Virus record (IMG/VR): IMGVR_UViG_3300009159_000203
Location: 1-31,703 of that record
Reading direction: 5' to 3' (one strand)
DNA length: 31,703 nt
Source of the DNA: a virus
Both the position numbers and the translations under genes were made by a program. Under the pieces are notes generated by a model. The model ran no database searches. It was not told the origin of the DNA and was given only the letters and a program-made list of their open reading frames with translations. Shown one piece after another: positions 5,380 to 31,703 of the stretch. Positions within the stretch are counted from its first letter, which is position 1; the number at the start of each line of letters is the position of its first letter.

Positions 5380-5855
5380 GCTCAGTTAATTCAGTTATAG
5401 CTTCCACCGGCTAATATCGGGTGGCGAACAGTAGAAACCTGGCCTTCGTGTGCGCAGGAATCCGAAGACTCACCGCTGAAGTGAGCACTCAATCAGTATC
5501 CTTAACAGGACCACGATCGCAAATTGCCGCGGTTTGATTGTTTGAATAGAGTGAAATAGAGCTAAAAGAGGGGACAGTGAAGCCCCGGATTAATGCGTAT
5601 GTTAGCGTATGTGCATTAATTACCGTCATAACAAGACGTAGCTAGGGGTACAGGATGACCGCCTCAGTAATGCTACAACGCTAAGTGACTTGCGTACTCA
5701 GATAATGCCAAGTTTTCTTAACCCGGTTACCTGGGTTAAGTGTGACCATTGTATCTAGATAATACTTAAACTACTTCGTAGTTATCATGTGTTTTAAATA
5801 AGAAAATGCGTTGAGCGATAGCGATAACGCAAATGAGCGTTAGCTCATTTAAACA
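5380..5855 (+). ncRNA. gene-free, strongly structured segment; candidate noncoding RNA
   Basis: No coding frame is supported here. The stretch is instead packed with self-complementary segments. The perfect stems found are: CCACC 5404-5408 with GGTGG 5420-5424; CTCAC 5469-5473 with GTGAG 5481-5485; GGGG 5570-5573 with CCCC 5583-5586; ATTAATGC 5589-5596 with GCATTAAT 5613-5620; CTTAACCC 5717-5724 with GGGTTAAG 5733-5740; AACTAC 5769-5774 with GTAGTT 5778-5783; and AAATGAGC 5831-5838 with GCTCATTT 5843-5850. The loop of the fourth hairpin (TTAGCGT, 5602-5608) is perfectly complementary to ACGCTAA at 5678-5684, a 7-bp pseudoknot. No TpsiC-like or anticodon arm of a tRNA and no RNase P or tmRNA signature was recognised. 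Strand is assumed from the neighbours. Exact ends are unknown. Confidence 0.55.
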
Positions 5856-5892: not shown

Positions 5893-6777
5893 ATGAAAAT
5901 ATCCCAAGTTCTAGAATCACAACAGCAGTTAGATGAATTAAACTTAGCTCAAGCAGGGCAAGCTGTAGGTGGTGCTGTAGGTAAAACAGCTAATGCAATA
6001 GGTGGCATTGCAGGTGGAGTTAAAGGTGCATGGGATGCCGCAAAATCTGGCTTCCAAGCAGGTAAAGACTTTGTAGGTGGTCAAAAAGTTGGTGCTACTG
6101 ATGCTAAATCAATTAATCAACAAGGACCCGCAGGTACTGCACCAGCACAAAACATTCAAGGTTCTGCAGGAACAGCAATGGGCAACATGGGTAAAGCAAT
6201 GGCTGGACAAAAACCAGCTCAAGCAGGCGCTACATTATACGCTCAAGTTAAAAGTCAAATTAACAAACTAGATCCTCAAAGCAAACAAAAACTATTAACA
6301 CTGGTTCAAAAATCAGTTCAACAAAAACAACCCAAGCAAGGCGGACAACAGTCAGGTGCTATGGGACAAATGGCAAATGCCCTAACAGGTGGCGGACAAC
6401 AAGCACCTGCTCAACCAAACACAATGGCTAATGCTCCTGTTAGTGCAACTAACACAGCAAAGCCAGGTAATCCAAACGCACAACAAACAACTACTCCTCC
6501 TGAAGAACAACCGGCAGCTCCCGCTCAGCAAACAGCGGCTCCAGCAGAACAACCAGCACAACAAAAGATGGACCCTAATAAAGCCGCGGAGCTTAAAGGT
6601 CGTTTAAAAGCTGGACAAGGTGTTGGACAAACAGCAGGTGGTGGATTTAAGAACTATGTTGCAGGTAGCCAGGAGAAGTTCCAGGGTGCTGATGCAAGTG
6701 GTGCTCCTGTATTCAAGAAACTACAGCGTGAAGGTGCTTACGGATTTGAAAGTAAGTTCTTTGGCGGCCTAATTTAA
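5893..6777 (+). CDS. Q/A/G-rich virion or internal head protein, putative
   Basis: A 294-residue low-complexity protein rich in Q, A, G and P, with a repetitive centre (residues ~130-235) such as AAPAEQPAQQ. Its only ordered-looking parts are the two ends. The N-terminus MKISQVLESQQQLDELN looks like the capsid-targeting sequences of T4 internal proteins (for example MKTYQEFIAE). It contains L-D-E, which matches the gp21 protease rule (L/I-x-E, cut after E), at residue 15. The C-terminus carries GAYGFESKFFGGLI. It is transcribed from the TATAAATA box at 5856, as expected for a late virion gene. Start: ATG preceded by AGGAAAG. Its stop codon overlaps the stop of the converging minus-strand frame. 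Function is inferred only from these features; a packaged internal protein or head-core component is my best guess. Confidence 0.6.
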   Translation: MKISQVLESQQQLDELNLAQAGQAVGGAVGKTANAIGGIAGGVKGAWDAAKSGFQAGKDFVGGQKVGATDAKSINQQGPAGTAPAQNIQGSAGTAMGNMGKAMAGQKPAQAGATLYAQVKSQINKLDPQSKQKLLTLVQKSVQQKQPKQGGQQSGAMGQMANALTGGGQQAPAQPNTMANAPVSATNTAKPGNPNAQQTTTPPEEQPAAPAQQTAAPAEQPAQQKMDPNKAAELKGRLKAGQGVGQTAGGGFKNYVAGSQEKFQGADASGAPVFKKLQREGAYGFESKFFGGLI

Positions 6778-7870
6778 AAGAACGGCAAGCCTGACTTTTT
6801 AGTTGTTTCTAGATTCTCTTCAATTATTTTAAAGATAATAGCGCGGTCCTCATTATCTAATTGCCACGCTTCTTCGATGGTAACACTTCCTCTCATGTAC
6901 CAGCATAGCTTGAAGAGGCTTTCTTTAAATTCTTTAGATTGTGTTTCGTAGCTCTTAACCAGCTCTTCAATCTGGCTATTATCTAGTGTTAAGAGCTTCG
7001 ACCGAAAAAATCTGAATTATCTAACCCTATAGGAACTTCATAAGTCTCTGGAGCACCTAACTCGCGATGTTCATCGCTAGAAGTCATTACTAACGGTTGT
7101 AAGCCTGTAATTTTTTTCATCCTAGCAATGTGGTCATTGATCTTTTTGTACAGATCTGCATCAGCATTTTTTAAAAATTCTTTAATGTACGCAGGTTCTT
7201 TAACTAGTGTGTCCGGCGTTTGGATAGCTTGTACGGTATCAGCAACTAGATCAACTGTGATATCAGTCATTTTACTAAAACTTTGATTAAAGACTTCTAA
7301 TTTCTTTTCATCAGATATATCATCGTCATTAACGGCCTGCATTAGTCGCTGTGTTTCAAACGCTTTCATGCTGGTCATAGTAACGTGTTTGTAAGTCAAT
7401 GGACGAACAAAGCAGGTTAGTTGTTCATTAATTTCAACTGCATCTTCCCAACGGTTAACACTTAACTGATCAAGCATTATTCGTAAATCTATTTGATGTT
7501 CTACTACTTCGTTAATGTTTGGAACCACATGACTGATTTCCATCATTTCACCGTAAGTAGCAATACGAATAGCAACTAGTATTAGATCTAAATCGATGTT
7601 AGGAGTTTTCCAAGCATCTTTAATATTCGGAATACAACTTTGAATAACATCAACTACGGCTTGCCCGTTCATTAATGCGTCTGGAGTCTTGAATACTAAC
7701 TCATCTTTAGCAGTCATTGAATAAACTGGAAATTGACCATTTTCCGGAACTTGAATAGCATTTTGCGGCCAATATGCTCCGCCGCTAGGAAGCGAAATGT
7801 AGATCTTAGGCTGTCGCATAAACCCGGCTAACGGGTTTGATTTTTTAGGCATTGCTTGAATCTCTGGCAT
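6774..7870 (-). CDS. gp26-gp51-like fusion made by -1 ribosomal frameshift (predicted)
   Basis: Directly after the gp26-like frame, the -1 frame runs open from before the 0-frame stop to a TAA at 6776-6774. It encodes 76 residues after the slip, beginning RSKLLTLDNSQ and containing the conserved-looking core L-C-W-Y-M-R-G-S-V-T-I-E-E-A and the end K-K-S-G-L-P-F-F. No ATG, GTG or TTG precedes that core; the only ATG lies inside it. A slip at T-TTT-TTC (7010-7004) would join 289 residues of the gp26-like protein to these 76, giving 365 residues. This copies the G/GT logic of tail assembly chaperones in lambda-like phages. In T4, gene 51 directly follows gene 26, so the extension probably replaces gp51, although I cannot align it here. 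A sequencing error is the alternative. Confidence 0.7.
6950..7010 (-). promoter_or_regulatory. programmed -1 frameshift signal: slippery heptamer plus stem-loop
   Basis: On the minus strand the heptamer T-TTT-TTC occupies 7010-7004 in exactly the required phase, since zero-frame codons are TTT at 7009-7007 and TTC at 7006-7004. After a 6-base spacer (7003-6998), a perfect 10-bp stem follows: AGCTCTTAAC 6997-6988 with GTTAAGAGCT 6959-6950. The loop is 28 bases. Beyond one A/A mismatch the stem gains two more pairs. The zero-frame stop (6991-6989) lies inside the stem. Confidence 0.78.
6989..7870 (-). CDS. 26: baseplate hub/assembly protein, gp26-like
   Basis: A 293-residue protein resembling the T4 gp26 family of baseplate proteins. 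The recognisable part is the N-terminal I-Y-I-S-L-P-S-G-G-A-Y-W, followed by a helical body with D-L-D-L-I-L-V-A-I-R and a cysteine-containing T-C-F-V-R-P-L. The frame also opens at a GTG at 7894. The ATG at 7870 is chosen because GGAG lies about 10 bases before it and the protein then starts MPEIQAM. A late promoter TATAAATA is at 7920-7913 on this strand. Near the 3' end a slippery T-TTT-TTC precedes a strong stem, so this is probably only the shorter of two products. The gene is on the opposite strand from all its neighbours. Assignment is by residue pattern and by the gp51-like frame that follows, as in T4 (26 then 51). Confidence 0.72.
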   Translation of the reverse strand: MPEIQAMPKKSNPLAGFMRQPKIYISLPSGGAYWPQNAIQVPENGQFPVYSMTAKDELVFKTPDALMNGQAVVDVIQSCIPNIKDAWKTPNIDLDLILVAIRIATYGEMMEISHVVPNINEVVEHQIDLRIMLDQLSVNRWEDAVEINEQLTCFVRPLTYKHVTMTSMKAFETQRLMQAVNDDDISDEKKLEVFNQSFSKMTDITVDLVADTVQAIQTPDTLVKEPAYIKEFLKNADADLYKKINDHIARMKKITGLQPLVMTSSDEHRELGAPETYEVPIGLDNSDFFGRSS

Positions 7871-7944: not shown

Positions 7945-10467
7945 ATGAGCGGCGCATCCGAAGCAACCTTACAAGAACTATTACAAGTTAATCGCGACAT
8001 GGCTTCTGCTATCTCTAAACTAGCAGGCGCTAGTGGGGGATCGGGCGGAGGTGGCGGGGGTGGCGGCGCCGCAAACAAAGCTAGCGGCTTATTAGGTAAA
8101 TCATTTGAAACCTTAGGTAAAGGCGCCGGTATGGTCTCTGGCGTATTCAGCACAATGATGAAGCCTGCCATGATGGCGGCTACGGCTGGATTTGGATTAT
8201 TAGTATCAAGCGGTAAAACTTTATTTGCTAATCAAATGGCGCTAGCAGATGGCGCCATTGCAGGTACAAACAGTTTAGCTAGTATGACTGCTGGCTTAGA
8301 ACAGCTTCCGGGTATTTTAGGTTTTGCAATGAAAGCCTACAATTTTCAAATTAAGAAAATGGAAGCTAACATTAAGACTTACGATCAAATTAGTACAGTT
8401 GGTGCAAGATTCGGTGGTAGCTTAGAAGAAATGCGAGCTGGTGCTAAAAGTTCATATCTAAGTTTAGATGAATTTGCACAAGTGATGAAACAAGCAGGAC
8501 CTCAGTTAAGGTTTATGGGGTCTAGTTCAGAAGAAGGCGCACGAAACTTAGTTAAGTTTAACAGTACAATGATAAAGGGCGAAGTAGGTAAAGGCCTACT
8601 TGGCATGGGATATAGTCTAACTGAAGCTAACTCTATGATAGCTACTTACTCAGAATCTGTAGGTGGATTAAAAGCTAGCCAGATGAAAGACCAAAAAGAA
8701 ATGGAAAAAAGTGTTAAGTTTTTTGCAGAAGAACTCGATGCGGCGGCTCAGCTAGAAGGTAAGACTCGTCAACAGAAAGAAGAAGAAATGAAACAAGCTA
8801 GCCAACAAGCGGCTGTTCGTGCAAAACTTTCTGAGATGGGTCCAGAGGAACAAAAGAAATATCTTGCGGCATATAATGCGGCATTGCGTGTTGGTGGTAA
8901 AGGTGCGGCAGAAGCACTACAAAGTCAGTTGTTAGGATTACCCCCAATGACTAAAGCGGCACAACAATTTACAGCAGTTAATGGAGAAGCGGCCGCCACA
9001 GTTAAACAATTAGGTGATACTGTTACTGACGGCTCAAAAGCAGTTGATGCTAGGTCAAAAATTGACAAGCTGGCTAACCAAGGTGTTGCTCAGAGTGCTA
9101 AGATGTACAAAGATTTAGGAGTTACCGGTGCGGCCCTATCAATGAGTCAAAGTGGACTAGCTGACACAGTTAATGCTGGTGCAAAAAACATGGCCGACAT
9201 GAATAATCTAGAAGCACAGTCGGCTGAAGATTTAGATAAACGTACTGCAAAAATTCGTGCAGAACAAGACACAGCACAAAAGAGTAATATAGGAGCAATA
9301 AAACAACAGCAAGGTGCTGCCAAGTATGCAGGTGAAGCAATGATGGATTTATACTATAAAGCATTAAAACCATTAATTGATATCATATTAAAGTTGAATG
9401 AGAAATTCTTAGAAGTGTTGCCCGCTATTGCACAATTTACAGCTGATGTAATTAACAAAGGTCTAGCGGTGTTGACTAGTATCTTTAAAGCTATTGACTG
9501 GAGCGCAGTTAAAACAAGTTTTATGGGAGCATGGAAAATGCTAACAGAAACTTTTGGAAATATTTACGATGCTGTTGGCAAAGCTGTAGGAGGCAGTGGT
9601 GGCATCGGTGGACTACTGTCAAAGGGTATGACCGTGTTCTTTGACACTATGAAAAGCATAATTGAAGTAGTTGGCGTTATCGTAGTTAAATTTGTACAGA
9701 GCAATTTATTTCAAACATTAAAAACTTTTATGTTAAGTATGTGGGACTTGATCAAAGTCCTTGTTGATGCTGTTGTTGAAATAGTTAAGAGTCCAGTTGG
9801 GATGTTTGTTATTGATGTTATCTTTGACACATTTGACATATTGTTTACAATCGTTAATAAATTGATCGAGGGAGTTAAAGCGGCTGTTACTCTTATTGTT
9901 CAAGTGGTAAAATCTGTTACTACTGATTTTTCAGAATCGTGGAAAAAGATCAAAGATTATGTAATGAATTTAATCAATACTGTTAGTGATTGGTTTAAAT
10001 CAATACCTAAAAAGATTAATGATTTCTTTGGAGAAGGGAACTTACTTGAACAAGTATTCGACGCACTAAAAGGAATCATTGGAGGTATAGTAGATGGTAT
10101 CAAAGCTATTGGTTCTAAAATTGTAAACTTCTTCAAGAGCAGTGATGCGGCTCCTACGGCTCCTACGGCACCACAAACAGCAAGTGCTCCTAATGGTAGT
10201 AATATGCCGCCCATGACAGAAACGGCACGAAAAATGGCAGAAGAAAATGCCAAAAAGAACGCACCTACTGTTACAGCTAACAATAATGGCAATGTGCCTG
10301 TGGTACAACCAAAATCAAATGATCCTACAGAAATTTTACGTGCTGAGATACAAACGTTAAATAACATTACGTCAGAAATGTTAAAAGCTATAAGAGATAC
10401 TCGTGACTATTCTAAGTCAACAGCTAATACTCTAGCTTCAAATGGCAATCTGTTTAAACGAGGATAA
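7945..10467 (+). CDS. tail tape measure protein (gp29-like position)
   Basis: An 840-residue protein with tape measure composition. It has a short helical N-terminus, a run of eight glycines near residues 34-41, then long alpha-helical A/K/Q/E-rich stretches. Hydrophobic segments cluster at about residues 470-735 (for example PLIDIILKLNEKFLEVLPAI and FVIDVIFDTFDILFTIVNKL). A flexible A/P/T/N-rich piece (about 735-790) and a helical end follow. Tape measures set tail tube length at roughly 0.15 nm per residue, so a tube of at most about 126 nm would be expected, longer than that of T4, whose gp29 has 590 residues. The hydrophobic segments are typical of parts ejected into the host membrane. 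The start follows only a weak GGAAAA. It lies directly upstream of the portal gene, not the usual T4 place for gp29, so I leave the symbol empty. Confidence 0.78.
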   Translation: MSGASEATLQELLQVNRDMASAISKLAGASGGSGGGGGGGGAANKASGLLGKSFETLGKGAGMVSGVFSTMMKPAMMAATAGFGLLVSSGKTLFANQMALADGAIAGTNSLASMTAGLEQLPGILGFAMKAYNFQIKKMEANIKTYDQISTVGARFGGSLEEMRAGAKSSYLSLDEFAQVMKQAGPQLRFMGSSSEEGARNLVKFNSTMIKGEVGKGLLGMGYSLTEANSMIATYSESVGGLKASQMKDQKEMEKSVKFFAEELDAAAQLEGKTRQQKEEEMKQASQQAAVRAKLSEMGPEEQKKYLAAYNAALRVGGKGAAEALQSQLLGLPPMTKAAQQFTAVNGEAAATVKQLGDTVTDGSKAVDARSKIDKLANQGVAQSAKMYKDLGVTGAALSMSQSGLADTVNAGAKNMADMNNLEAQSAEDLDKRTAKIRAEQDTAQKSNIGAIKQQQGAAKYAGEAMMDLYYKALKPLIDIILKLNEKFLEVLPAIAQFTADVINKGLAVLTSIFKAIDWSAVKTSFMGAWKMLTETFGNIYDAVGKAVGGSGGIGGLLSKGMTVFFDTMKSIIEVVGVIVVKFVQSNLFQTLKTFMLSMWDLIKVLVDAVVEIVKSPVGMFVIDVIFDTFDILFTIVNKLIEGVKAAVTLIVQVVKSVTTDFSESWKKIKDYVMNLINTVSDWFKSIPKKINDFFGEGNLLEQVFDALKGIIGGIVDGIKAIGSKIVNFFKSSDAAPTAPTAPQTASAPNGSNMPPMTETARKMAEENAKKNAPTVTANNNGNVPVVQPKSNDPTEILRAEIQTLNNITSEMLKAIRDTRDYSKSTANTLASNGNLFKRG

Positions 10468-16675: not shown

Positions 16676-16773
16676 ACTAAATATAAAGGTACGACTTGCA
16701 TGGTGCAAGTTTTATGCGGAAATCTAACCGCGTACGGCCTAGAACGCCGTGATATTCTTTAAGGAGAAATAAA
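16676..16773 (+). promoter_or_regulatory. possible late promoter and hairpin-rich leader
   Basis: ACTAAATA at 16676-16683 matches the late box at six of eight bases. The leader that follows holds three perfect hairpins: ACTTGCA 16694-16700 with TGCAAGT 16704-16710; GCGG 16716-16719 with CCGC 16728-16731; ACGGC 16734-16738 with GCCGT 16746-16750. AAGGAG (16761-16766) lies clear of them before the ATG at 16774. Confidence 0.42.
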
Positions 16774-17724
16774 ATGGGACGTCCGATTAAATCGAAATTT
16801 TTTGGTAATAGAAATTATCCATACGACAACGCAAACACTGGCGGAACAACCGGTGTTGGTGGTGAAGGTGTAGCAAGTGTTACCTTTTCAAATAGTGGTA
16901 CACTATACTCACAAGGTACAACAGTAACTTTTGGTGCTCCAAACGTGTCCGGTGGTGTCCGTGCAACGGGTACTCCAGTAATTGATGCCGCAGGTTTGCT
17001 ACGTAGTGTTACAATTACTACAACAGGTACTGGTTATACTAGTGCTCCAACACTAACTGTAACTACAGCTAGTTCAGTAGTAAAAGCAAGTACAGGAACT
17101 ATTGCACAGAGCGTAATTTATCCAGCAACTACAACAGGTATTTCTGTTGGTATGAAAGTTATTGGTACAGGTATCAATGCTGGTGCAACTTATGTTTTAA
17201 GTGTTGTAGGATCTGCTGTTAATTTATCAGCGGCAAACGCTGGCGCAGTTACTACAGCTTCATCTATCACTTTTGTTGATGCAGGTTCAAGTCAAGCTAA
17301 CTCAGTTACATTGTTTGCTAACACAACAACACAAGACTCTCTTGCAATTACATCTTATCTAACAACTGGTAGTTCAGCTGTTAGCGGCGGTGATATTATC
17401 AAACAAGAAAGCTCACGTCGTTACCTAGTGCGTAACAGCCAAGGTATTGGTCAAGTTAAATTGAGTGCTGGTGATGGCCCGACTCATACATTGACAGCAG
17501 GCAACATGCACATAGTTGCCACTGACGGTGGTGGCGCAACATACTATGTTATGAAACTAACAGCCCACAAAGCAACTGTTGTAAATAGAACTTCAACATC
17601 TACAGCATTAATTACTACAGGTACTTTTGTTATCGGCGGTGTTTCATACACCGGCGGTGACTGCGGCTGGACATTAGGTGCGGCTACCGGTACTAACCAA
17701 GTGTCTCTTGGTAAGAACGCTTAA
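16774..17724 (+). CDS. virion surface/decoration-type structural protein, putative
   Basis: A 316-residue G/T/S/V/A-rich beta protein opening MGRPIKSKFFGNRNY. Similar openings (MGRPxNKKYFGNRN) are known to me from structural proteins of T4-like cyanophages. The body has repeated short beta phrases, such as GVASVTFSNSGTLYSQGTTV and TTTGTGYTSAPTLTVTT, which look like tandem small beta domains. The second half has E-S-S-R-R-Y-L-V-R-N and a C-terminal part with Y-Y-V-M-K-L-T-A-H-K-A. No transmembrane or enzymatic motif is visible. Its place directly after gp23, in its own unit with a strong AAGGAG, suggests an abundant head or tail surface component. The exact location on the virion is not shown. 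Confidence 0.7.
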   Translation: MGRPIKSKFFGNRNYPYDNANTGGTTGVGGEGVASVTFSNSGTLYSQGTTVTFGAPNVSGGVRATGTPVIDAAGLLRSVTITTTGTGYTSAPTLTVTTASSVVKASTGTIAQSVIYPATTTGISVGMKVIGTGINAGATYVLSVVGSAVNLSAANAGAVTTASSITFVDAGSSQANSVTLFANTTTQDSLAITSYLTTGSSAVSGGDIIKQESSRRYLVRNSQGIGQVKLSAGDGPTHTLTAGNMHIVATDGGGATYYVMKLTAHKATVVNRTSTSTALITTGTFVIGGVSYTGGDCGWTLGAATGTNQVSLGKNA

Positions 17725-20888: not shown

Positions 20889-23800
20889 ATGGCCGTAGGT
20901 CGCATAACGGGTCCGCTGTTAGCGAAGAATTTACTTCGTGATGGTGTAGACTTAGCATTTGAAACAGATTTATTATACCTCGACGTTAATACAGGTCGCA
21001 TCGGCATCAAGACAGCCAATCCGCAGTATACGTTAGACGTTAATGGCGATACTAACGTTCTTTCGTTAAGAGTAGCAACTACTTCTACATTAGGCAATTT
21101 ACTTGTCTATCCTAATAACAGTACAACATACGTAACAAACACAGTTGGCGATTTAATAATTGGCGCTCCGCTCGAGCAAAGAGTTGTTATCAGTAGTGAC
21201 GCATTAGTTCAAGGTAATTTACACGCTACAGGAAATATTTCAGCACAAGGTAGTGTCCAAATTGGTAACATTACTGGTTCGGACACATTAAGTCTATATG
21301 CTGATATTGTTTCAAATATTACACCACAAACTAGTTCAACATATGATCTAGGAGCACCTGGCCTAAGCTGGGGCAATGCCTATGTTGATACATTAATTGC
21401 TCAGACGCTTACTGGTCCGTTAGGCAAAGAAATTAATATTACCCCAGATATTAACCAATTGGTTAACATTAAAGGTAATGTTCGTATCTATGGAAATAAT
21501 CCTTTAGGTACCGGTGCTGTTACACAAAATACATTGTATGTTAACATGGACGGAAGCGACACCAATGACGGTGGCGCTATTGATGCTAGTCGTGCTTGTC
21601 GAACAATCGGCGGCGCATTAAAGAGCCCGTTATACAAAGCTGGAACAAGTATTAAAGTTGCATCAGGTCGCTACTTAGAAAATAATCCTTTAAGATTAAA
21701 ACCTTTTACCAGCGTTATCGGTTCTGACCTTCGTACAACGGTTGTTGAACCAATTAATAAAACACAAGATTTATTCTGGGTAGATAGCGGATGCTATATA
21801 GCACAGATGTTGATGGCCAATGGTCAATCTGGTCTGCTACCCGGTACTGGTTATACTGCGGGAACTAACCGAGGTGCTTATGCTACAGCGTTCCCTCCAA
21901 ACTACGGCGGCGAAAAGATCTACGTAACGCACTCACCCTACATTCAAAACTGTACTAATCAATCTGGCCCGTGGCTAAATGACGGTACGCTATTCCAACC
22001 TAACCAAACAATTCAAATTCCAGAAGCTATCGGCACAGCTACTTGGGTTGCAAATACAACAACCCTGATGGTGACTATTGAAGAAGGTGCTCTAACGATT
22101 GGACAAAGTATTAATTCTGGACCTACAAAACCTGGTTACATAAATGCTCGAACATTGTTGTTGGCAAATAAATCATTCTTACAAGAACAAGTTATTGCTT
22201 ACATTGATGACATATATTCTTATTTTGGATATGATGAAACTAAATGCGTTCGTGACACAGGATTAATTGTTGATAGTTTAGTAACTGACTTATTATTCCC
22301 AGCTAACGGATATACACAAAGTAATTTTTCTGGTTTGCAATACTGGAATCAGGACGGATACACCGGTATAATTAATACAGAAATTACAACAACTACAAAT
22401 GCTATTAACTACGTCAATAGTCTAGCACAAAAGATTGTTCAAAATATCACAACCGGTACTCGTTATAATAGTACAGTTACACAAGTATTAGGTACTGGTG
22501 CTACACCTACCCAAGCCGCAGAAATTGCAACTGAGTTTGACTTAATTGTTCAAATTATTAATTCAGGCACTAGCGGTGTAACAGACCTTGTTAATCCAAA
22601 CGGTACTGATGTGCTATCAGCTAACGCACAAAATGCCGCAGATTTATTGCAGGCAAATAGAACATACCTACAGGCAGAAGCGGTTGCGTATGTTGAATCA
22701 ACTAAGACTCCCGGCTTTGCATACGACCCAGTTAAGTGTTATCGTGATGTGGGCTATATGGTTGATTCTGTTACCTTTGATATACTATACGGCGGCAATA
22801 GACAAGCTATTCAGTCTGGTGTTTATTATTACGGATTCTCAAATACACAAAGCGCAATCCCAGGAGAAATCCCACAGACAACTGCCGCTTATTTTAGAAT
22901 TAGAGAAATTGTTGGACAAATTATTACTAACGAAGCAGTAACAAAATCTCCAGGTAACGGAAGTGTTCAGGTAACAAATTTACCAACAGCTACAGAATCT
23001 GAAACAGTTTTATTAAGAGAGATGGTTGATCTAATCACTGATATTATTGGTGCAGGTCCTGACGCCGCTCAAACTCCGTCGCCTATTGGCTTAGTTCGTT
23101 CATCTGATGCAGATGTTCTTAAAGCAGTAAACTTATTAAAAGCTAATAAGTCTTTTATTATCAGTGAAGTTATTAGTTTTATTGATTCTAGATACAATAC
23201 TGGTTTTGCTTATAATAATGTTAAATGTGCCCGCGACACAGGATTAATTGTTGATAGTATTGCAACAGACTTATTATATGTAGGCGACACACAATCAACA
23301 TTTGCTGGATTACAATATTGGAATCAAGCAGATTACACCGGTGAGATTAAGACAGAAGTTACTGCAACCGTTGCGGCGATTAATTATGTAAGTTCATTAG
23401 CGGCACAAGTTATTTTAGGTAATACTGGAACAAGATATCAAAGTACTGCTACACAAATATTCAGCACAACTGCTACACTTAATGAATCATTGTTTGTTGT
23501 AGAAGAATTTGGAATTATAGCTAACATTATTAAAAATGGTACTAGTGGAGTAACTGATTTAATTATACCAAATGGAGCAACGTCAACTGCTACTGCTTTT
23601 GTCAACGCTTTTAATATTTTACAAACAAACAAATCTTACATTCAATCAGAAGCAGTTGCGTTTGTTAATAGTCAAAATAAAATATTTGATACTGTAAAGT
23701 GTGCTCGTGATACAGGATTAATTGTTGATGCTATCGCACAAGATTTATTGTTTACAACATCTAGCCAAGCGACATTTGCTGGACTACAATATTGGAACCA

Positions 23801-26800
23801 ACAAGGCTATACAGGTTCTATTGCTAGCGAGATTACTACAACTACTGCGGCAATTTCTTACGTTAAAGATTTAGCTAAGAAGATTGTAGAGAATAATGTT
23901 ACTGGAACTCGTTACTCTACTGGTACACAGATAACTGCTCTTCCTGCCGCAACAACAGTTGAAGCAAATATTATCGGTATAGATTTTGATGTAATCTTAA
24001 CTATTCTTAATACAGGTACTGCTGGGGTAACTGATATTATTGTTCCTAACGGATTAGAATTTAGTCCTGATCCAAACAAAATCAAAGCCTATAATTTATT
24101 ACAGGCTAACAAGACTTATATAAGTCAAGAAGCTGTTGCATTTGTTGAAGTTACTAAAACAGGCGGCTTTACATATGATGCAGTTAAATGTGCAAGAGAC
24201 ATTGGATATATTGTTGACTCTGTAAGTTTTGACTTAGCATATAGCGGTAACCGTCAAGCAATACAGTCGGCTGTTTATTATTACGGATTCTCTGGTCAAA
24301 CAGCAATCCCAGGTGAGATATCTAATACTACACTAGCCTACAACAAACTAAGAGAATTATTACCATATGTAATTAGAGGATCATCATATCCGTTCCCTTT
24401 ACAAACTTCTGTAAGTCAAGTAGTTAGTGCAAGTACAGGAACATTAGCCGAAGCAAACTCAGCACAGGCAAGTGTTGACCTAATAACAAATATTATTAAC
24501 AACGGCCCGAGTATTGTTCCTGTTAAACTTCCAATGAGTTTGACACCTTCTGGTAATACTCGAGTAGTTAACGCCGCTTCTTTAATTGAAGCAAACCGTT
24601 CATTCTTAGTAGCCGAAGTTCTAGAATATATTAGCAACCCTGTAGACTTTACATACGATTCAGCCAAGTGCTATCGTGATGTAGGATATATGATCGACTG
24701 TGTAAGTTTTGATTTACTGCACAGCGGCAATCGTCAGGCAGTTACTGCTGGTGTTTACTATTATAATTTTGATGCAGGATTTAGTGCGATTGTAGATCAA
24801 ATTCCTCAAACAACTGCGGCCTACAAACATATTAGAAATATTGTTGGTAAGATTGTAACTAATACACCCGTAACTCCAACTGCTGGAAATACAGCAACAC
24901 AAGTTACTCTTGCAAATACCGCAACCACAGTTGAAATTCAATCATTATATTCTAAACTTGATATAATCACTGACATTATTACTAGTGGACCGAGCGTTGC
25001 GGCTGCGCCACAACCTATTAGTTTAACAGCATCAACCTCAACTACGGTGACTTATGCTTACAATCTATTGCAAGCTAACAGATCATTTATACAGCAAGAA
25101 GTTATTGCATTTATCGATCAATTCCAACCTGGTTTTGTTTACAACCGAGCCAAGTGCCGTCGTGATATTGGTATTGTTGTAGAGAACATTGCTTACGATA
25201 TTGCCTTCGGCGGAAATGAAAAATCAAGAGAATCGGGCCTTGCTTACTGGAATGGCGTGACAAGTGTAATCTCAGGACAGATCTCACAATCTGTTGATGC
25301 ATTTACATATTTAGGTACACTAGCTCAAGCAGTAGTTACAAACACCACTGCAACAAATATATTAAACACTTATCAAACAGCTCCGCAGGTGTTTAACGCT
25401 AATCTAACTGACGGGGATCTTGCATCTAGTTTATTACCTAGACTAGTTGGTATTATTACAAATATTATTGCCAACGGCCCAGACTCGGCTCCTGTAAGAC
25501 AATCAGGAAACGGTCCAGATTGGGGCTCTGTATCAGCTGAAGTATTATTACAAACTAACAAATCATTTATTCAGAACGAAGTTCTAAACTGGATTAATAA
25601 CACATATCCATACTTAGAGTATAGAGAAGATAAATGTTACCGTGATACAGGATTAATTATCGATGCTGTTACACAAGACATTATTCTAAATGCCAACGCT
25701 AAGAGTATTGAAGCCGGTGTATCATACTGGACTGGAAACAAAAACATAATTGCAAATGCAACCTATGGACAAGTAGATCAAACAGTTGAAACTGTTGCGG
25801 CTATTAACCATGCCAGAGATGTTGCTCTACAAGTTATTAACAATACAACAGTAACTAATGTAGGGTTTAATTTTAGTTCTATAAAATGTTACAGAGATAC
25901 TGGATTAATTATTGACGGACTGGCACAAGATTTATTATTTGGTGGCAACAGCCAATCAACATTTGCTGGTATACAATATTGGAACCATGGAAATTACACA
26001 GGTAATATTCCTCAAGAAATTACTACAACTACTGCGGCAATTACCTATATTAGAGACTTGGCCAAGAAGATTGTTCAAACTAATACATCTGGTGTTAGAT
26101 ATCAAAGTACTGTTACGCAAAATACATTATTGCCAACTGCAACACTTTCCGAAGCTAATACTATTGGAACTAAATTTGATACTATTTTAAATATTTTAAA
26201 CAACGGTGTGACCGGTGTAACAGATACTATTGTTCCTAACAGCATAACCCCAAGCGGCAACGTTAATATTCAAAAGGCCTACGATTTATTACAGGCTAAT
26301 ATTGAATACATGAAAGCAGAAGCTATTGGATTTGTAGAAGCAAGTAAGAGTTTTAGATATGATAAAACTAAGTGCGCCCGTGATACTGGCTTAATTGTTG
26401 ACAGTATTGTTATTGACTTAGCATATCCAACACAGTATCTAAGCCAATCAACATTTGCTGGACTACAGTACTGGGACCAAGGCGCATATACTGGTATAAT
26501 TGCCACAGAAATAACAACTACTACTAACGCTATTGATTATCTAAGTTATCTTGCACAAGAAATTGTTCAAAATATTCCAAACGGTACGCGATATCAGGGC
26601 GATATTACACAACAGCTATTGCCTACTTCCGGTGATGTTGACCAAATTAATTATATTAGTGACGAATTTAATTTAATTAAAAATATTATTCTTACTGGAA
26701 CAAACGGAATCACCGATGTAGTAGAATCAAACTTAGTTGATCCGTCTAGTGATACTATTACTCAAGCGGCATACAATCTATTGCAACTCAACAGAGAGTA

Positions 26801-29800
26801 TATGATTGCGGAAGTTATTGCGTTTGTTGAAGCAACTAAGACTCCTGGATTTGTTTATGATGCAACTCTGTGTGCTCGTGATACAGGCTATATGATTGAC
26901 TCAGTGAGCTTTGACTTGTTACACGGTGGTAACCGTCAAGCAATTCAATCAGGTGTTTATTATTATAGCTTTAATGAGACATCAAGTGCTATACCCAACG
27001 AACAACCACAAACTATTGCGGCTTTCCAATTTGTTAAAACATTGTGTTCTAGACTAGCTCAAAACTTGCCAATTACTCCGTTACAAACAGCAATTGATCC
27101 TGTGTTAACGCCAATTGAAGATGCCGCAAGTATTAGTGTTGAGCCCAAGGTCTTTAGTCCAGTTGAGAAAATAATTAGAATTATTAAAAACGGTCCCGGT
27201 GTTGTTGGCTACAAAACTCCAGTATCATTAACTCCAACTTACGACATAGACAAATACCGTGCCGCTAAGATTTTAGAAGAAAATAAAGAATTTATTAAAG
27301 CAGAAACAATCGCATTTATTGATCAGCAGTTGTCTTTCCAATACGATCCGGTAACCTGCGCTCGAGATGTAGGATATATTGTTAATTCAGTGAGCTTTGA
27401 TCTGTTATACGGCGGCAATCGTCAAAGTATCCAGTCAGGCGTTTATTATTGGGGTTATACTCAGAATAGTACAGCATTGCCAAAAGAGCGTGTGGCAACT
27501 ACTCTTGCATATGAATATATGAAAGAACTAGTTGATCAAATTGTTGTTGGGACTCCGATTGCAACTACCTATCAAAATACAGTTACTCAGAACATAAGCT
27601 ATCCGGCCGCTACTGATATTGAAATTTCTACATTAGATACCAGCATCGATTTAATTACAAAAATTATTAACGAAGGACCTAGTGTAGTAAAAGCTAAGAC
27701 ACCGATTGGTCAAGTTGCAAGTGACAATCAGTTTGTAAGAAACGCTGTTAATTCATTAATTGCTAACAGACAATTTATCCAGGCAGAGGTTGTATCATTT
27801 GTTGCACAAACTCTAGTTGGTAACCCGCAAGTTATTTTACCTTTCTACGACGAAGGTGCTAACGCAACATTAGCAGTAATTAGAAACTTTGACTTAATTG
27901 CTAACATTGTTGCTAACGGTCCGGGTGTTGCACCAATCAAATCAGATGGTAACGGAATATTCATCTCAATGGGATTAACAGTTGACGATGTTAAAGTTGC
28001 TCCAATCATTACAAACATTACTCCACTAGGAGGAAACAGCTATCAAGTTGATATCAATCAAAGCACAATTGGATACGGTGATGACCAACCATTATATTTT
28101 GGTCAAACACTAGTATTTCCGTTACAAGATAAAGATGTTCCAGATCGCTGGCAACAACGTAGAGTTAACCCGATTGGATCAATGGGCGGCTCGCTAGTTG
28201 ACGGCGGTGTTGTTTCAGATCGATCACAGATTAATTCTTTTGTTTATGATGCATTTACACAAGTTAACCAAGGCGGTGTCGGAGTGCGTATTACAAACAA
28301 TGGATACGCACAGCTAGTTTCGGTGTTCACGATCTTCTGTTCACAATCTGTTGTTGCAGAAAACGGCGGACTATGCTCTATTACTAACTCTAACGCTAAC
28401 TTTGGCGACTTATGTCTAGTTGCTAAGGGTTACGGCAAGCGTGATTTTTCTGGATATGTAAGGAACCAACCAGTTCTTCCATATTATCCAAACGGTGTCT
28501 ATCCACAGAACGGTCAAGTACAGATTTATATTGCTGATCCTGATCTTCGTCCACACATTTCTTTGGTAATGGAAGTTCAACCTCCTGTAGGATTTACTAA
28601 CAACCAAGGTTTACCAGGCTTCTTGTCAGGTAATACAAGTATTGACGTACTAACAACTGGAACTATTGACATTGTTGGAGTTGATACTACCGGATTTATT
28701 ATTGGCCAATCGTTCTATATTATTGATCAATATGGTAGAAAAGTTGACAGTAACAATCAACCTTATGTAAAAGCAGGTACTATTGTTGCAGATGTTAACT
28801 ATCAAACAATTACATTAAACTTCCCACTTAACTCCGGTGGTGGCGAAGTTGGAAACAACAATTATTTTAATTTGTACGCTTGCGGCAATGCATACTATAC
28901 AGTTTTATCAAGTGCGCTTGCTCCAGACCCAATTACTCCAGGAACAAGCCTACTACCAAATAATCAAAACGTTGAAGAGGCGATATCATTAGATTATATT
29001 AATACACTAAGTCAGGCTATTGTTGCTAATATTCCTTACAGTGGATTAACAACTTCAACCCAGGTGTTTGATTCAAGTCTACTTGGTGGTGCAGGTGCTA
29101 ACTCGTTTATTACAAATAGACTAGGAACAATTCAAACTATTCTTGAGAATGGTCCATCGTATGCTCCGTTAATTACAAAATCAGGCACATTGCCAACTGG
29201 CGCAGGTTCTGCAGCCAGCTTGTTAACTAAGAACAGAAGTTATATTCAAGACGAAGTGATTGCGTATGTTGATTCAACATTCTTTAACTTTGATTACGAT
29301 CAAGTTAAATGTGCTCGTGACACCGGACTAATTGTTGACTCAATCGCACAAGATTTATTGTTTAGAACTAATAGTCAATCAACTTTTGCTGGAATCCAAT
29401 ACTGGAACCAAACTGAGTACACTGGTGCTATCGGTAGTGAAATTACAACTACTACTGCGGCAATTTCTTATGTTAAAGGGCTATCACAAGAGATTGTACA
29501 AGGGTTAAGTGGTACACGATACACAACAGGAACACAGATTACAAACTTAACTTTAGCAACTCCAGCTGAAGCTTCAGCAATTGGCACAGACTTTAATGTA
29601 ATTTTAGGTATTCTTAATGGCGGCACCGCAGGCGTTACTGATAATGTTATTCCTAACAGTATAACATCTAGTACTAATATTAATATTGTACGTGCTTACA
29701 ACTTATTACAAGCCAACAAGACATATATCCAACAAGAAGCAGTTGCATTTGTTGAAGCTACAAAACAGCCAGGCTTTGAATATGACCAAACATTATGTTA

Positions 29801-31703
29801 TCGAGATGTAGGATTTATGGTCGACTCTGTAAGTTTTGATTTATTGTACGGCGGCAATCGCCAAGCAATACAATCAGGCGTTTACTATTATGGATATAGT
29901 TCAACATCAACTTCTATTGTTGGAGAAATTCCACAAACGGTTGATGCTTATAATCATATTTCATCGTTAACACAGAAAATTATTCTTGGCCAACCAATTA
30001 CTCCATTACAAACAGCAATACCACAGGTTACAAATGTAACTACAAGTACAATAAACGAAGTAGTATCTGTAAAAGAACTTGTTAATAATATTACTAATAT
30101 TGTTACAAATGGACCCGAAACTACTATTAGTGTGTCATCGTTACCTACAACAGTTAGCCCTGATGCTAATGCTGTTAACTCTGCTAAGATGTTAGCAAGT
30201 AACCGTGCGTTTATTGTTGCAGAAGCGATTGCATTTGTTAATCAAACATTCCCAGCTCTGAGCTACAACGCAACTAAGTGTGCTCGTGATATGGGATTAA
30301 TTGTTGATTCAGTTGCACAAGATTTAATGTTTGACAGTTACAGTCAATCTATATTCAGTGGTGTTCAATATTGGAATCACGGAAGCTACGTTGGTGGTAT
30401 TGCAGGAGAGTTGACAACTACAACCAATGCAATTAACTATGTTAAAACTCTTGCACAAAAAATTGTTCTAAGAGATCGAACAGGAACACGATATCAGTCA
30501 GCAGTATCTCAAAATATTGCAGGTACGGGCGCAACAGGTGCTGAAACAGCGGCTATTGCTGCCGACTTTACTGTTATTACAGATATCTTATCAGGCGTTC
30601 AATCAATTAATACTGTAACAGATATTATTGTTTCTAATAGTTTAGTGGCAAGCACAAGTACTAATGTACAAAATGCTTATGCATTGCTATTAGCTAACAG
30701 AACATATATCCAAGCAGAAGCAGTTGCCTATGTAGAGTCAACTAAGACAGCAGGCTTTACATATAATCAAGATAAATGTTATCGTGACGTTGGTTATATG
30801 CTTGATTCAGTTGCAATTGATTTGTTATATGGTGGTAACCGCCAGGCTGTTCAATCAGGTGTATACTATTATAGCTTTAATAAATCATCAACTGCATTGC
30901 CAGGCGAACAAACACAATCTGTTGAAACATATAATTATATTAGAAGTATTTTATCTAGTATTATCTTAGGAGACACGATAAGTTCTCCAAGACAAGTTGT
31001 CGTAGCTCAGGTTACAGGTGGAACTCTTGGTAATATTGAACAGGCAACTCTTGCACAATCTAAGATAGATATTATTAATAATATTATTGTTGGTGGCCCA
31101 ATAGTTTCTTCAACTAAGAGACCAATTAGTTTACATCGTAGCAGTGAGACAAATGTAATTAACGCGGCAAAAGCAATTGAAGCTAATCGTGCATTTATTG
31201 TTGCAGAAGTCATTGCATATATAAACAGCAAATATGTTTCGTACAACAAAGCAAAATGCCGCCGTGACGTTGGATTAATTGTTGATGCATTGACATACGA
31301 TTTAGAAAACGGCGGAAATTACAATGCGGTAGTTGCAGGCAAGAGCTATTATGCTCAAGAAGGCACCTTCCATATTGTACAATTAGAAGAAAACGTAACT
31401 GATCCTGCACTATTCCCAGATGATGCAATAGTCACATTCTATCAACGTTCATACATGTCAGCTTCTGGCTACTTGTTTGAGTACGTGGGTGCTGGTACAA
31501 ACTATGGTGCTTTACCACAGCGCGGTGTTAAAGATCCAGTACAAAGCAAGGAAACAGTTCAATTAAATAATGGTAAGGTGTTCTTTACATCAACTGACCA
31601 AAACGGTGACTTCCGTATTGGTACAGGACTTGTAATTAGTCAGGCAACTGGTGTGTTATCAGGAAGAACGTTCACTAAGTCATTATTTGCAAACTTAACG
31701 CCA
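20889..31703 (+). CDS. giant repeat-containing tail fibre/virion structural protein (3' end outside window)
   Basis: One frame runs from the ATG at 20889 (GAGGAG before it) to the window edge, 3605 codons, with no stop; the same frame is kept at all 17 repeat motifs I checked. Residues 1-210 are fibre-like: RITGPLLAKNLLRDGVDLAF, then I-G-I-K-T-A-N-P-Q-Y-T-L-D-V-N-G near 38. Residues ~213-380 look like the first part of a pectin-lyase-type beta-helix (A-F-P-P-N-Y-G-G, S-P-Y-I-Q-N-C-T). A first repeat array fills ~418-2320. The second beta-helix part (G-G-S-L-V-D-G-G-V-V-S-D-R-S, Y-D-A-F-T-Q-V-N-Q-G-G, C-S-I-T-N-S-N-A-N-F-G-D) is at ~2420-2525. A second array is at ~2685-3485, and F-E-Y-V-G-A-G-T-N-Y-G-A and D-Q-N-G-D-F-R-I-G follow near the end. 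These non-repeat pieces match phrases in T4-like cyanophage structural proteins as I recall them. Likely role: host-contact fibre. Confidence 0.85.
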   Translation, partial: MAVGRITGPLLAKNLLRDGVDLAFETDLLYLDVNTGRIGIKTANPQYTLDVNGDTNVLSLRVATTSTLGNLLVYPNNSTTYVTNTVGDLIIGAPLEQRVVISSDALVQGNLHATGNISAQGSVQIGNITGSDTLSLYADIVSNITPQTSSTYDLGAPGLSWGNAYVDTLIAQTLTGPLGKEINITPDINQLVNIKGNVRIYGNNPLGTGAVTQNTLYVNMDGSDTNDGGAIDASRACRTIGGALKSPLYKAGTSIKVASGRYLENNPLRLKPFTSVIGSDLRTTVVEPINKTQDLFWVDSGCYIAQMLMANGQSGLLPGTGYTAGTNRGAYATAFPPNYGGEKIYVTHSPYIQNCTNQSGPWLNDGTLFQPNQTIQIPEAIGTATWVANTTTLMVTIEEGALTIGQSINSGPTKPGYINARTLLLANKSFLQEQVIAYIDDIYSYFGYDETKCVRDTGLIVDSLVTDLLFPANGYTQSNFSGLQYWNQDGYTGIINTEITTTTNAINYVNSLAQKIVQNITTGTRYNSTVTQVLGTGATPTQAAEIATEFDLIVQIINSGTSGVTDLVNPNGTDVLSANAQNAADLLQANRTYLQAEAVAYVESTKTPGFAYDPVKCYRDVGYMVDSVTFDILYGGNRQAIQSGVYYYGFSNTQSAIPGEIPQTTAAYFRIREIVGQIITNEAVTKSPGNGSVQVTNLPTATESETVLLREMVDLITDIIGAGPDAAQTPSPIGLVRSSDADVLKAVNLLKANKSFIISEVISFIDSRYNTGFAYNNVKCARDTGLIVDSIATDLLYVGDTQSTFAGLQYWNQADYTGEIKTEVTATVAAINYVSSLAAQVILGNTGTRYQSTATQIFSTTATLNESLFVVEEFGIIANIIKNGTSGVTDLIIPNGATSTATAFVNAFNILQTNKSYIQSEAVAFVNSQNKIFDTVKCARDTGLIVDAIAQDLLFTTSSQATFAGLQYWNQQGYTGSIASEITTTTAAISYVKDLAKKIVENNVTGTRYSTGTQITALPAATTVEANIIGIDFDVILTILNTGTAGVTDIIVPNGLEFSPDPNKIKAYNLLQANKTYISQEAVAFVEVTKTGGFTYDAVKCARDIGYIVDSVSFDLAYSGNRQAIQSAVYYYGFSGQTAIPGEISNTTLAYNKLRELLPYVIRGSSYPFPLQTSVSQVVSASTGTLAEANSAQASVDLITNIINNGPSIVPVKLPMSLTPSGNTRVVNAASLIEANRSFLVAEVLEYISNPVDFTYDSAKCYRDVGYMIDCVSFDLLHSGNRQAVTAGVYYYNFDAGFSAIVDQIPQTTAAYKHIRNIVGKIVTNTPVTPTAGNTATQVTLANTATTVEIQSLYSKLDIITDIITSGPSVAAAPQPISLTASTSTTVTYAYNLLQANRSFIQQEVIAFIDQFQPGFVYNRAKCRRDIGIVVENIAYDIAFGGNEKSRESGLAYWNGVTSVISGQISQSVDAFTYLGTLAQAVVTNTTATNILNTYQTAPQVFNANLTDGDLASSLLPRLVGIITNIIANGPDSAPVRQSGNGPDWGSVSAEVLLQTNKSFIQNEVLNWINNTYPYLEYREDKCYRDTGLIIDAVTQDIILNANAKSIEAGVSYWTGNKNIIANATYGQVDQTVETVAAINHARDVALQVINNTTVTNVGFNFSSIKCYRDTGLIIDGLAQDLLFGGNSQSTFAGIQYWNHGNYTGNIPQEITTTTAAITYIRDLAKKIVQTNTSGVRYQSTVTQNTLLPTATLSEANTIGTKFDTILNILNNGVTGVTDTIVPNSITPSGNVNIQKAYDLLQANIEYMKAEAIGFVEASKSFRYDKTKCARDTGLIVDSIVIDLAYPTQYLSQSTFAGLQYWDQGAYTGIIATEITTTTNAIDYLSYLAQEIVQNIPNGTRYQGDITQQLLPTSGDVDQINYISDEFNLIKNIILTGTNGITDVVESNLVDPSSDTITQAAYNLLQLNREYMIAEVIAFVEATKTPGFVYDATLCARDTGYMIDSVSFDLLHGGNRQAIQSGVYYYSFNETSSAIPNEQPQTIAAFQFVKTLCSRLAQNLPITPLQTAIDPVLTPIEDAASISVEPKVFSPVEKIIRIIKNGPGVVGYKTPVSLTPTYDIDKYRAAKILEENKEFIKAETIAFIDQQLSFQYDPVTCARDVGYIVNSVSFDLLYGGNRQSIQSGVYYWGYTQNSTALPKERVATTLAYEYMKELVDQIVVGTPIATTYQNTVTQNISYPAATDIEISTLDTSIDLITKIINEGPSVVKAKTPIGQVASDNQFVRNAVNSLIANRQFIQAEVVSFVAQTLVGNPQVILPFYDEGANATLAVIRNFDLIANIVANGPGVAPIKSDGNGIFISMGLTVDDVKVAPIITNITPLGGNSYQVDINQSTIGYGDDQPLYFGQTLVFPLQDKDVPDRWQQRRVNPIGSMGGSLVDGGVVSDRSQINSFVYDAFTQVNQGGVGVRITNNGYAQLVSVFTIFCSQSVVAENGGLCSITNSNANFGDLCLVAKGYGKRDFSGYVRNQPVLPYYPNGVYPQNGQVQIYIADPDLRPHISLVMEVQPPVGFTNNQGLPGFLSGNTSIDVLTTGTIDIVGVDTTGFIIGQSFYIIDQYGRKVDSNNQPYVKAGTIVADVNYQTITLNFPLNSGGGEVGNNNYFNLYACGNAYYTVLSSALAPDPITPGTSLLPNNQNVEEAISLDYINTLSQAIVANIPYSGLTTSTQVFDSSLLGGAGANSFITNRLGTIQTILENGPSYAPLITKSGTLPTGAGSAASLLTKNRSYIQDEVIAYVDSTFFNFDYDQVKCARDTGLIVDSIAQDLLFRTNSQSTFAGIQYWNQTEYTGAIGSEITTTTAAISYVKGLSQEIVQGLSGTRYTTGTQITNLTLATPAEASAIGTDFNVILGILNGGTAGVTDNVIPNSITSSTNINIVRAYNLLQANKTYIQQEAVAFVEATKQPGFEYDQTLCYRDVGFMVDSVSFDLLYGGNRQAIQSGVYYYGYSSTSTSIVGEIPQTVDAYNHISSLTQKIILGQPITPLQTAIPQVTNVTTSTINEVVSVKELVNNITNIVTNGPETTISVSSLPTTVSPDANAVNSAKMLASNRAFIVAEAIAFVNQTFPALSYNATKCARDMGLIVDSVAQDLMFDSYSQSIFSGVQYWNHGSYVGGIAGELTTTTNAINYVKTLAQKIVLRDRTGTRYQSAVSQNIAGTGATGAETAAIAADFTVITDILSGVQSINTVTDIIVSNSLVASTSTNVQNAYALLLANRTYIQAEAVAYVESTKTAGFTYNQDKCYRDVGYMLDSVAIDLLYGGNRQAVQSGVYYYSFNKSSTALPGEQTQSVETYNYIRSILSSIILGDTISSPRQVVVAQVTGGTLGNIEQATLAQSKIDIINNIIVGGPIVSSTKRPISLHRSSETNVINAAKAIEANRAFIVAEVIAYINSKYVSYNKAKCRRDVGLIVDALTYDLENGGNYNAVVAGKSYYAQEGTFHIVQLEENVTDPALFPDDAIVTFYQRSYMSASGYLFEYVGAGTNYGALPQRGVKDPVQSKETVQLNNGKVFFTSTDQNGDFRIGTGLVISQATGVLSGRTFTKSLFANLTP
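22140..27840 (+). repeat. first array of ~162-residue coding repeats (12 copies)
   Basis: Each copy begins around K-C-x-R-D-x-G and ends in L-L-x-A-N-(K/R)-x-(F/Y)-I-x-x-E. The K-C codon pairs start at 22242, 22734, 23223, 23697, 24186, 24666, 25152, 25632, 25884, 26370, 26868 and 27354 (K is L or T in the last two). Spacing is 474-498 bases except 252 between 25632 and 25884. Two types: A (L-I-V-D-S-I-A-x-D-L-L, F-A-G-L-Q-Y-W-N-Q) at 22242, 23223, 23697, 25884 and 26370; B (V-D-S-V-S-F-D-L-L-Y-G-G-N-R-Q-A, G-V-Y-Y-Y) at 22734, 24186, 24666, 26868 and 27354. Copies at 25152 and 25632 are divergent. Confidence 0.88.
28940..31350 (+). repeat. second array of the same coding repeat (5 copies)
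   Basis: Motifs start at 29307 (A), 29793 (B, with L in place of K), 30276 (A), 30774 (B) and 31254 (divergent, with Y-D-L-E-N-G-G-N). Here A and B alternate strictly, giving a double repeat of about 969 bases. A repeat-type second half (S-L-L-T-K-N-R-S-Y-I-Q-D-E) at about 29220-29260 precedes the first motif, so the array begins with a half unit. Confidence 0.87.

Follow-up and report, generated by a model that had tools for sequence, protein, structure and literature searches.

In phage lambda, a -1 slip shortly before the first frame ends yields the overlapping short and long products gpG and gpGT, and gene G lies upstream of the tape measure gene on the same strand. Such G-T frameshifting was described in a 2016 review as widespread and conserved in long-tailed phages 'except T4'. 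For T4-like phages, the tail assembly chaperones were identified by Vladimirov, Gautam and Davidson (2022), in work that other papers cite for a short-gene-plus-fusion-gene arrangement and for poly-T slip signals in T4-like TAC-N genes. A conserved -1 frameshift at a poly-T motif has also been found in a TAC gene of a contractile-tailed phage, at the Pakpunavirus locus of phage Adele (PMC12846349). In cyanophages, gp51 was reported to be about 20% of its full length, with the first ~200 residues missing, and Aeh1 was recorded as lacking gp51 (Sullivan et al. 2010, PMC3037559).

We analyzed a stretch of 31,703 nucleotides from an uncultured virus (IMG/VR record IMGVR_UViG_3300009159_000203), referred to here as the window, whose minus strand carries a junction of this kind. 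As in lambda, short and long products are predicted to overlap, with a -1 slip late in the first frame and a tape measure neighbor; however, the window gene is divergent from the tape measure gene, and the slippery heptamer of lambda G/GT differs from the TTTTTTC of the window. Like the T4-like chaperones gp26 (TAC-N) and gp51 (TAC-NC), the window gene belongs to PF12322 and would have short and long forms. It differs from them in representing an uncultured aquatic branch, in having a C-terminal domain of the group common to jumbo phages, and in the covarying downstream stem of its nearest relatives. Cyanophages share the TTTTTTC architecture, their short 'gp51' being the -1 frame, but their C-terminal domain is recognizably T4 gp51-like whereas that of the window is not. 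The Pakpunavirus motif is GTTTTT, in another phage lineage. Frameshifting in the -1 direction reportedly occurs in several T4-like groups, the T4 group having 26 and 51 as individual genes. Because chaperone frameshifting in some T4-like groups had been reported in 2022, the phenomenon was known, and the T4-lineage version of the trick suggested in a preliminary description of this DNA is not a new one.

A gp26-like gene with an overlapping -1 frame

At 7870 the zero frame starts with an ATG that has a GGAG-like ribosome site upstream, and its product ends in ...NSDFFGRSS*, encoded by GAT TTT TTC GGT CGA AGC TCT TAA (Table 1). The two arms downstream of the heptamer pair perfectly over 10 bp and enclose a loop of 28 nt. 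The -1 frame continues for 76 residues past FF to a TAA at 6776-6774, and a search of this frame of the window, beginning at its upstream stop and extending 90 nt beyond the zero-frame stop, found no ATG, GTG or TTG. The preliminary description had given the heptamer at 7010-7004, a 6-base spacer, a 10-bp stem, a 28-base loop and a stop codon inside the stem, and all of its coordinates are correct; its claim that the usable part of the -1 frame is start-less was also borne out.

Table 1. Features of the minus-strand junction and its surroundings, in window positions
Feature	Positions	Strand	Details
Zero-frame gp26-like ORF, putative short form (TAC-N)	6989..7870	-	293 aa
Slippery heptamer T_TTT_TTC	7004..7010	-	zero-frame phase, codons TTT TTC
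6-nt spacer GGTCGA	6998..7003	-	
Predicted stimulatory stem, 5' arm AGCTCTTAAC	6988..6997	-	fold energy; covariation
Predicted stimulatory stem, 3' arm GTTAAGAGCT	6950..6959	-	fold energy; covariation
Zero-frame stop TAA	6989..6991	-	within stem (5' arm)
-1 frame, C-terminal domain of putative long form (TAC-C)	6774..7010	-	78 codons, FFRSKLL...CWYMRG...LPFF
Tape measure-like protein, divergent neighbor	7945..10467	+	phrog_58 tail length tape measure, E 2e-15
Polynucleobacter-1 RNA	5399-5543	+	RF01718, 81 bits
freshwater-2 cis-regulatory RNA	16694-16776	+	RF02980, 77.5 bits
Repeat-containing ORF	20889-31703	+	at least 3605 aa; runs off window end

The zero-frame product passes the cut-off of PF12322 (T4_baseplate; 41.0 bits versus 24.5, E 2.3e-10) and matches the baseplate hub family phrog_150 (E 4.5e-13). 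Its AlphaFold model matches a viral 'Baseplate hub assembly protein, bacteriophage T4-like' (E 9.5e-22); Gp26 of Aeromonas phage 25 is a weaker match (E 9.2e-4), and, among solved structures, the HK97 tail assembly chaperone 2OB9 aligned over 101 of 107 residues with a Z of 5.6, a score tied with those of unrelated entries. The gp26-like label given to this frame earlier is upheld by the family and structural matches. Compared with the single sequences of T4 gp26 and gp51, the alignment profile of the zero frame gave no significant match, despite their common membership in PF12322. The gene lies about 75 bp from the tape measure-like gene, on the opposite strand, so that the two are divergent and the chaperone gene is not upstream. 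A divergent tape measure-like neighbor is also annotated in RaK2.

Elsewhere in the window we identified a Polynucleobacter-1 RNA in the intergenic region after a gene for a SegE-like GIY-YIG endonuclease, inside a T4-like phage genome. A freshwater-2 cis-regulatory RNA immediately precedes the next ORF after the gp23 capsid gene. The long ORF at the end of the window contains degenerate repeats of approximately YxxxKCxRDxGxxVDSxxxDL, and its first 1370 aa gave no Pfam match.

By itself the heptamer carries little weight, as it is a common sequence and occurs 7 times in the window versus 13.7 expected. The predicted fold of the stem region has an energy of -18.0 kcal/mol (z = -3.4), and a perfect stem of at least 9 bp at that spacing arose in 27 of 20,000 shuffles. 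Just one other of the 107 slippery-type heptamers in the window, counted in any phase, has such a stem. The cassette is not a chance arrangement, and the deciding evidence is its comparative conservation.

Conservation of the slip site and the downstream stem

A scan of viral contigs yielded 80 related loci, 77 of which reach the junction at 35-100% identity; one relative is identical to the window within the gene. A second scan, with gp26 of cyanophage S-CAM1 as the query, yielded 80 further loci of cyanophage type. In 77 of 77 relatives and in 80 of 80 cyanophage-type loci, TTTTTTC keeps the phase seen in the window and is followed by a -1 ORF. The distance from the heptamer to the zero-frame stop ranges from 3 to 144 nt among the 77 relatives. 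At two loci, L019 and L032 (junctions at 3364 and 3334), 108 and 144 nt separate the heptamer from the stop, versus 3-24 nt otherwise; the short form is thus lengthened there by a tail of 36-48 residues, and the -1 ORF is retained.

The codon before TTT TTC ends in T at all 127 unique junctions while the residue it encodes varies (N, S, D, A, R or G); elsewhere in the same genes T occupies 35-41% of third positions. No other in-phase TTTTTTC was found in about 31,500 codons of these genes. The variable residue, the fixed T and the lack of further in-phase copies indicate a constraint on the nucleotides, not on the protein.

The heptamer was also found in 13 isolate genomes (Atu_ph07, Phosso, MIJ3, RaK2, 121Q, CBB, S-CAM1, P-SSM7, Aeromonas 65.2, AS-zj, Vibrio 6E35-1b, Yut2 and OLIVR6), and variant slip sites occur in XacN1 (T_TTT_TTT) and phiM9 (T_TTT_TTG). 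Homopolymers are error-prone, and a misread or misassembled T run could split one continuous gene into two frames. The same T6C and frame break recur, however, in 77 plus 80 contig loci and in the isolates, making an artefact of this kind next to impossible. We rejected both the error and a single continuous gene because the frame break is conserved. A sequencing error in the T run had been named in the preliminary description as a danger to the cassette, and recurrence of the break across 157 contig loci and 13 isolates speaks against such an error.

The stem was analyzed in a gap-free alignment of 27 unique loci of at least 46% identity, picked by protein identity and not by the stem. Across this alignment 80% of the cells pair. 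Double changes affect 7 of the 10 stem pairs, in 22 cells compared with 8.6 in shuffles, and none of 500 shuffles reached as high a count. Compensated pairs include GGCTC/GAGCC, GGATC/GATCC and GGGTT/AACCC, and sliding the partner arm lowers every whole-structure measure, the best value being at slide 0. Among more distant relatives the stem at this position is lost, which suggests a clade-specific stimulator rather than a universal part. Of the parts whose joint variation among homologues had been proposed as a check, the heptamer is kept throughout (77/77 and 80/80), and the stem covaries in the nearest relatives and is lost in distant ones.

The stem also bears on whether RNA polymerase, rather than the ribosome, joins the two frames by slipping on the T6 run. 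A six-T homopolymer is indeed present at all loci of the frameshift type, and XacN1 has seven. Polymerase slippage would nevertheless require no codon phase, whereas the run is always an in-phase X_XXY_YYZ, with T6 then C, at 157 of 157 contig loci. A run of six T is short for efficient polymerase slippage, and the covariation of a downstream RNA stem also argues against it. We consider slippage by the polymerase very unlikely.

TTTTTTC is absent at the junctions of the Ackermannviridae (SFP10, HMGUkp5 and VP-1) and of Cygsa01, where the overlapping -1 domain is kept and is gp51-tail-like in all four. VP-1 and Cygsa01 have a TAATG overlap at the junction; SFP10 and HMGUkp5 show no obvious start there. 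These two TAATG junctions without a heptamer would fit a second frame that is a separate gene, translated by internal initiation or by reinitiation past the zero-frame stop, and GenBank draws phiM9 gp51, the Vibrio 6E35 hub assembly catalyst and 121Q 595 in this way. For the heptamer-bearing loci we regard such a gene as extremely improbable: no start codon lies in the usable part of the -1 frame of the window or of several relatives, start positions are scattered in other relatives, and the invariance of the heptamer would be left without a reason. Homologues with an ordinary start for the second frame, named in the preliminary description as a refutation, thus occur in some distant lineages, but no start was found in the window or in several close relatives.

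The -1 frame as a protein and its relation to gp51

The -1 ORF evolves as a protein. In the clade of the window its dN/dS is 0.11 (17 independent pairs), and the remaining two frames have dN/dS above 1 and contain stops; the cyanophage-type -1 frame has a dN/dS of 0.10. The domain has an invariant core of FFR, W, RG and N, and its AlphaFold model is helical (pLDDT 88). Its profile matches the corresponding frames of Phosso (6e-21), Atu_ph07 (1.9e-20), XacN1 (2.7e-7), MIJ3 (1e-6), 121Q (1.2e-6), RaK2 (1.8e-6) and CBB (3.8e-6), which places it, as judged from these profile matches, in the same family as the -1 frames of T4-like jumbo phages.

No match was found between the window domain and phrog_634, and hhalign against gp51 gave a probability of 4.5% in an off-register alignment. 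Compared with the cyanophage group, the best relative reached E 0.028 after one iteration, which is not significant, and aligning the profile of the window domain with that of the cyanophage -1 domains gave no significant match either. Foldseek searches of the 78-aa domain against the PDB and viral models gave nothing meaningful, nor did a sequence search of solved structures. The -1 frame of S-CAM1, on the other hand, matches phrog_634 'baseplate hub assembly catalyst' (E 1.4e-28), and the cyanophage domain profile finds gp51 of T4 (9.1e-5) and of Acinetobacter phage 133 (1.3e-5), with the best decoy at 0.31. By sequence similarity, the cyanophage -1 frame corresponds to the C-terminal part of gp51. 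The gp51-like label proposed earlier for the second frame thus holds in sequence for the cyanophage frames; it fits the window domain by position only, as that domain has no significant match to gp51.

One doubtful reading of this difference is that the C-terminal chaperone domains of T4-like phages are of two kinds, unrelated or exchanged long ago, behind the same invariant U_UUU_UUC site. A gp51-like domain would be found in cyanophages, Aeromonas and Vibrio T4-like phages and T4, and an LCWYMRGG-type domain in the window branch and jumbo phages. If so, the slip site would be the constant part and the domain that follows could be exchanged, perhaps to suit different tube proteins.

The short length of cyanophage 'gp51' is explained by the frameshift, since the annotated protein is the -1 frame. 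In Aeromonas phage AS-zj (Emmerichvirinae) the heptamer and the -1 frame are present. Aeh1 presumably belongs to the same group, and frameshifting probably explains why gp51 was listed as missing there.

T4 itself has two genes, which are divergent and on opposite strands (gene 26 on the minus and gene 51 on the plus strand). Both products are listed as hub assembly chaperones and match PF12322 (gp26, E 8.8e-64; gp51, E 3.9e-52); gp51 (249 aa) is paralogous to gp26 and bears an additional tail at its C terminus. Given their common family and the resemblance of the gp51 tail to the cyanophage -1 frame, T4 gp26 and gp51 look like short and long chaperones, and T4 appears to encode as two genes the forms that its relatives obtain from one gene plus a frameshift. 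The earlier view of 26 and 51 as separate neighbors was right about two genes; they lie on opposite strands, however, and gp51 is a paralogue rather than a separate downstream domain. With T4 gp26 as the query, the viral contigs yielded six loci, mostly near-identical to T4. An internal start is annotated within T4 gene 26 as well; it gives 26' (95 aa), which adds a third product to this chaperone gene.

Proposed mechanism and significance

The conservation of the heptamer, the dN/dS of the -1 frame and the compensatory changes in the stem indicate that -1 programmed frameshifting almost certainly gives rise to two tail assembly chaperones here, one short (TAC-N) and one long (TAC-NC). What is shown directly is the anatomy of the sequence together with its conservation, the protein-level selection on the -1 frame and the covariation in the stem. 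The cassette and the comparison with lambda G/GT, both put forward in the preliminary description, are supported.

We infer the shifting itself as well as its frequency, the pair of products and the partners of these products, as follows. Most ribosomes would end at the zero-frame stop and release the gp26-like short form of 293 aa. A minority would slip back one base on U_UUU_UUC, where tRNA-Phe could re-pair from UUU/UUC to UUU/UUU, and in the clade of the window the downstream stem would aid slipping. Slipped ribosomes would produce the long form, with its predicted helical C-terminal domain of 76 residues. A chaperone function is assigned to the gene by analogy: as for lambda G/GT, both forms may coat the product of the adjacent gene, the tape measure protein, and recruitment of the tail tube protein would fall to the C-terminal domain.

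Public records usually name the gene 'baseplate hub' and place a separate small gene behind it, or omit the second frame. The window extends the known chaperones by a representative of an uncultured aquatic branch, together with a stem that covaries and another group of C-terminal domains. The phrase 'except T4' bears revisiting, as the frameshift is found in most of the T4-type groups sampled and T4 has two genes instead.
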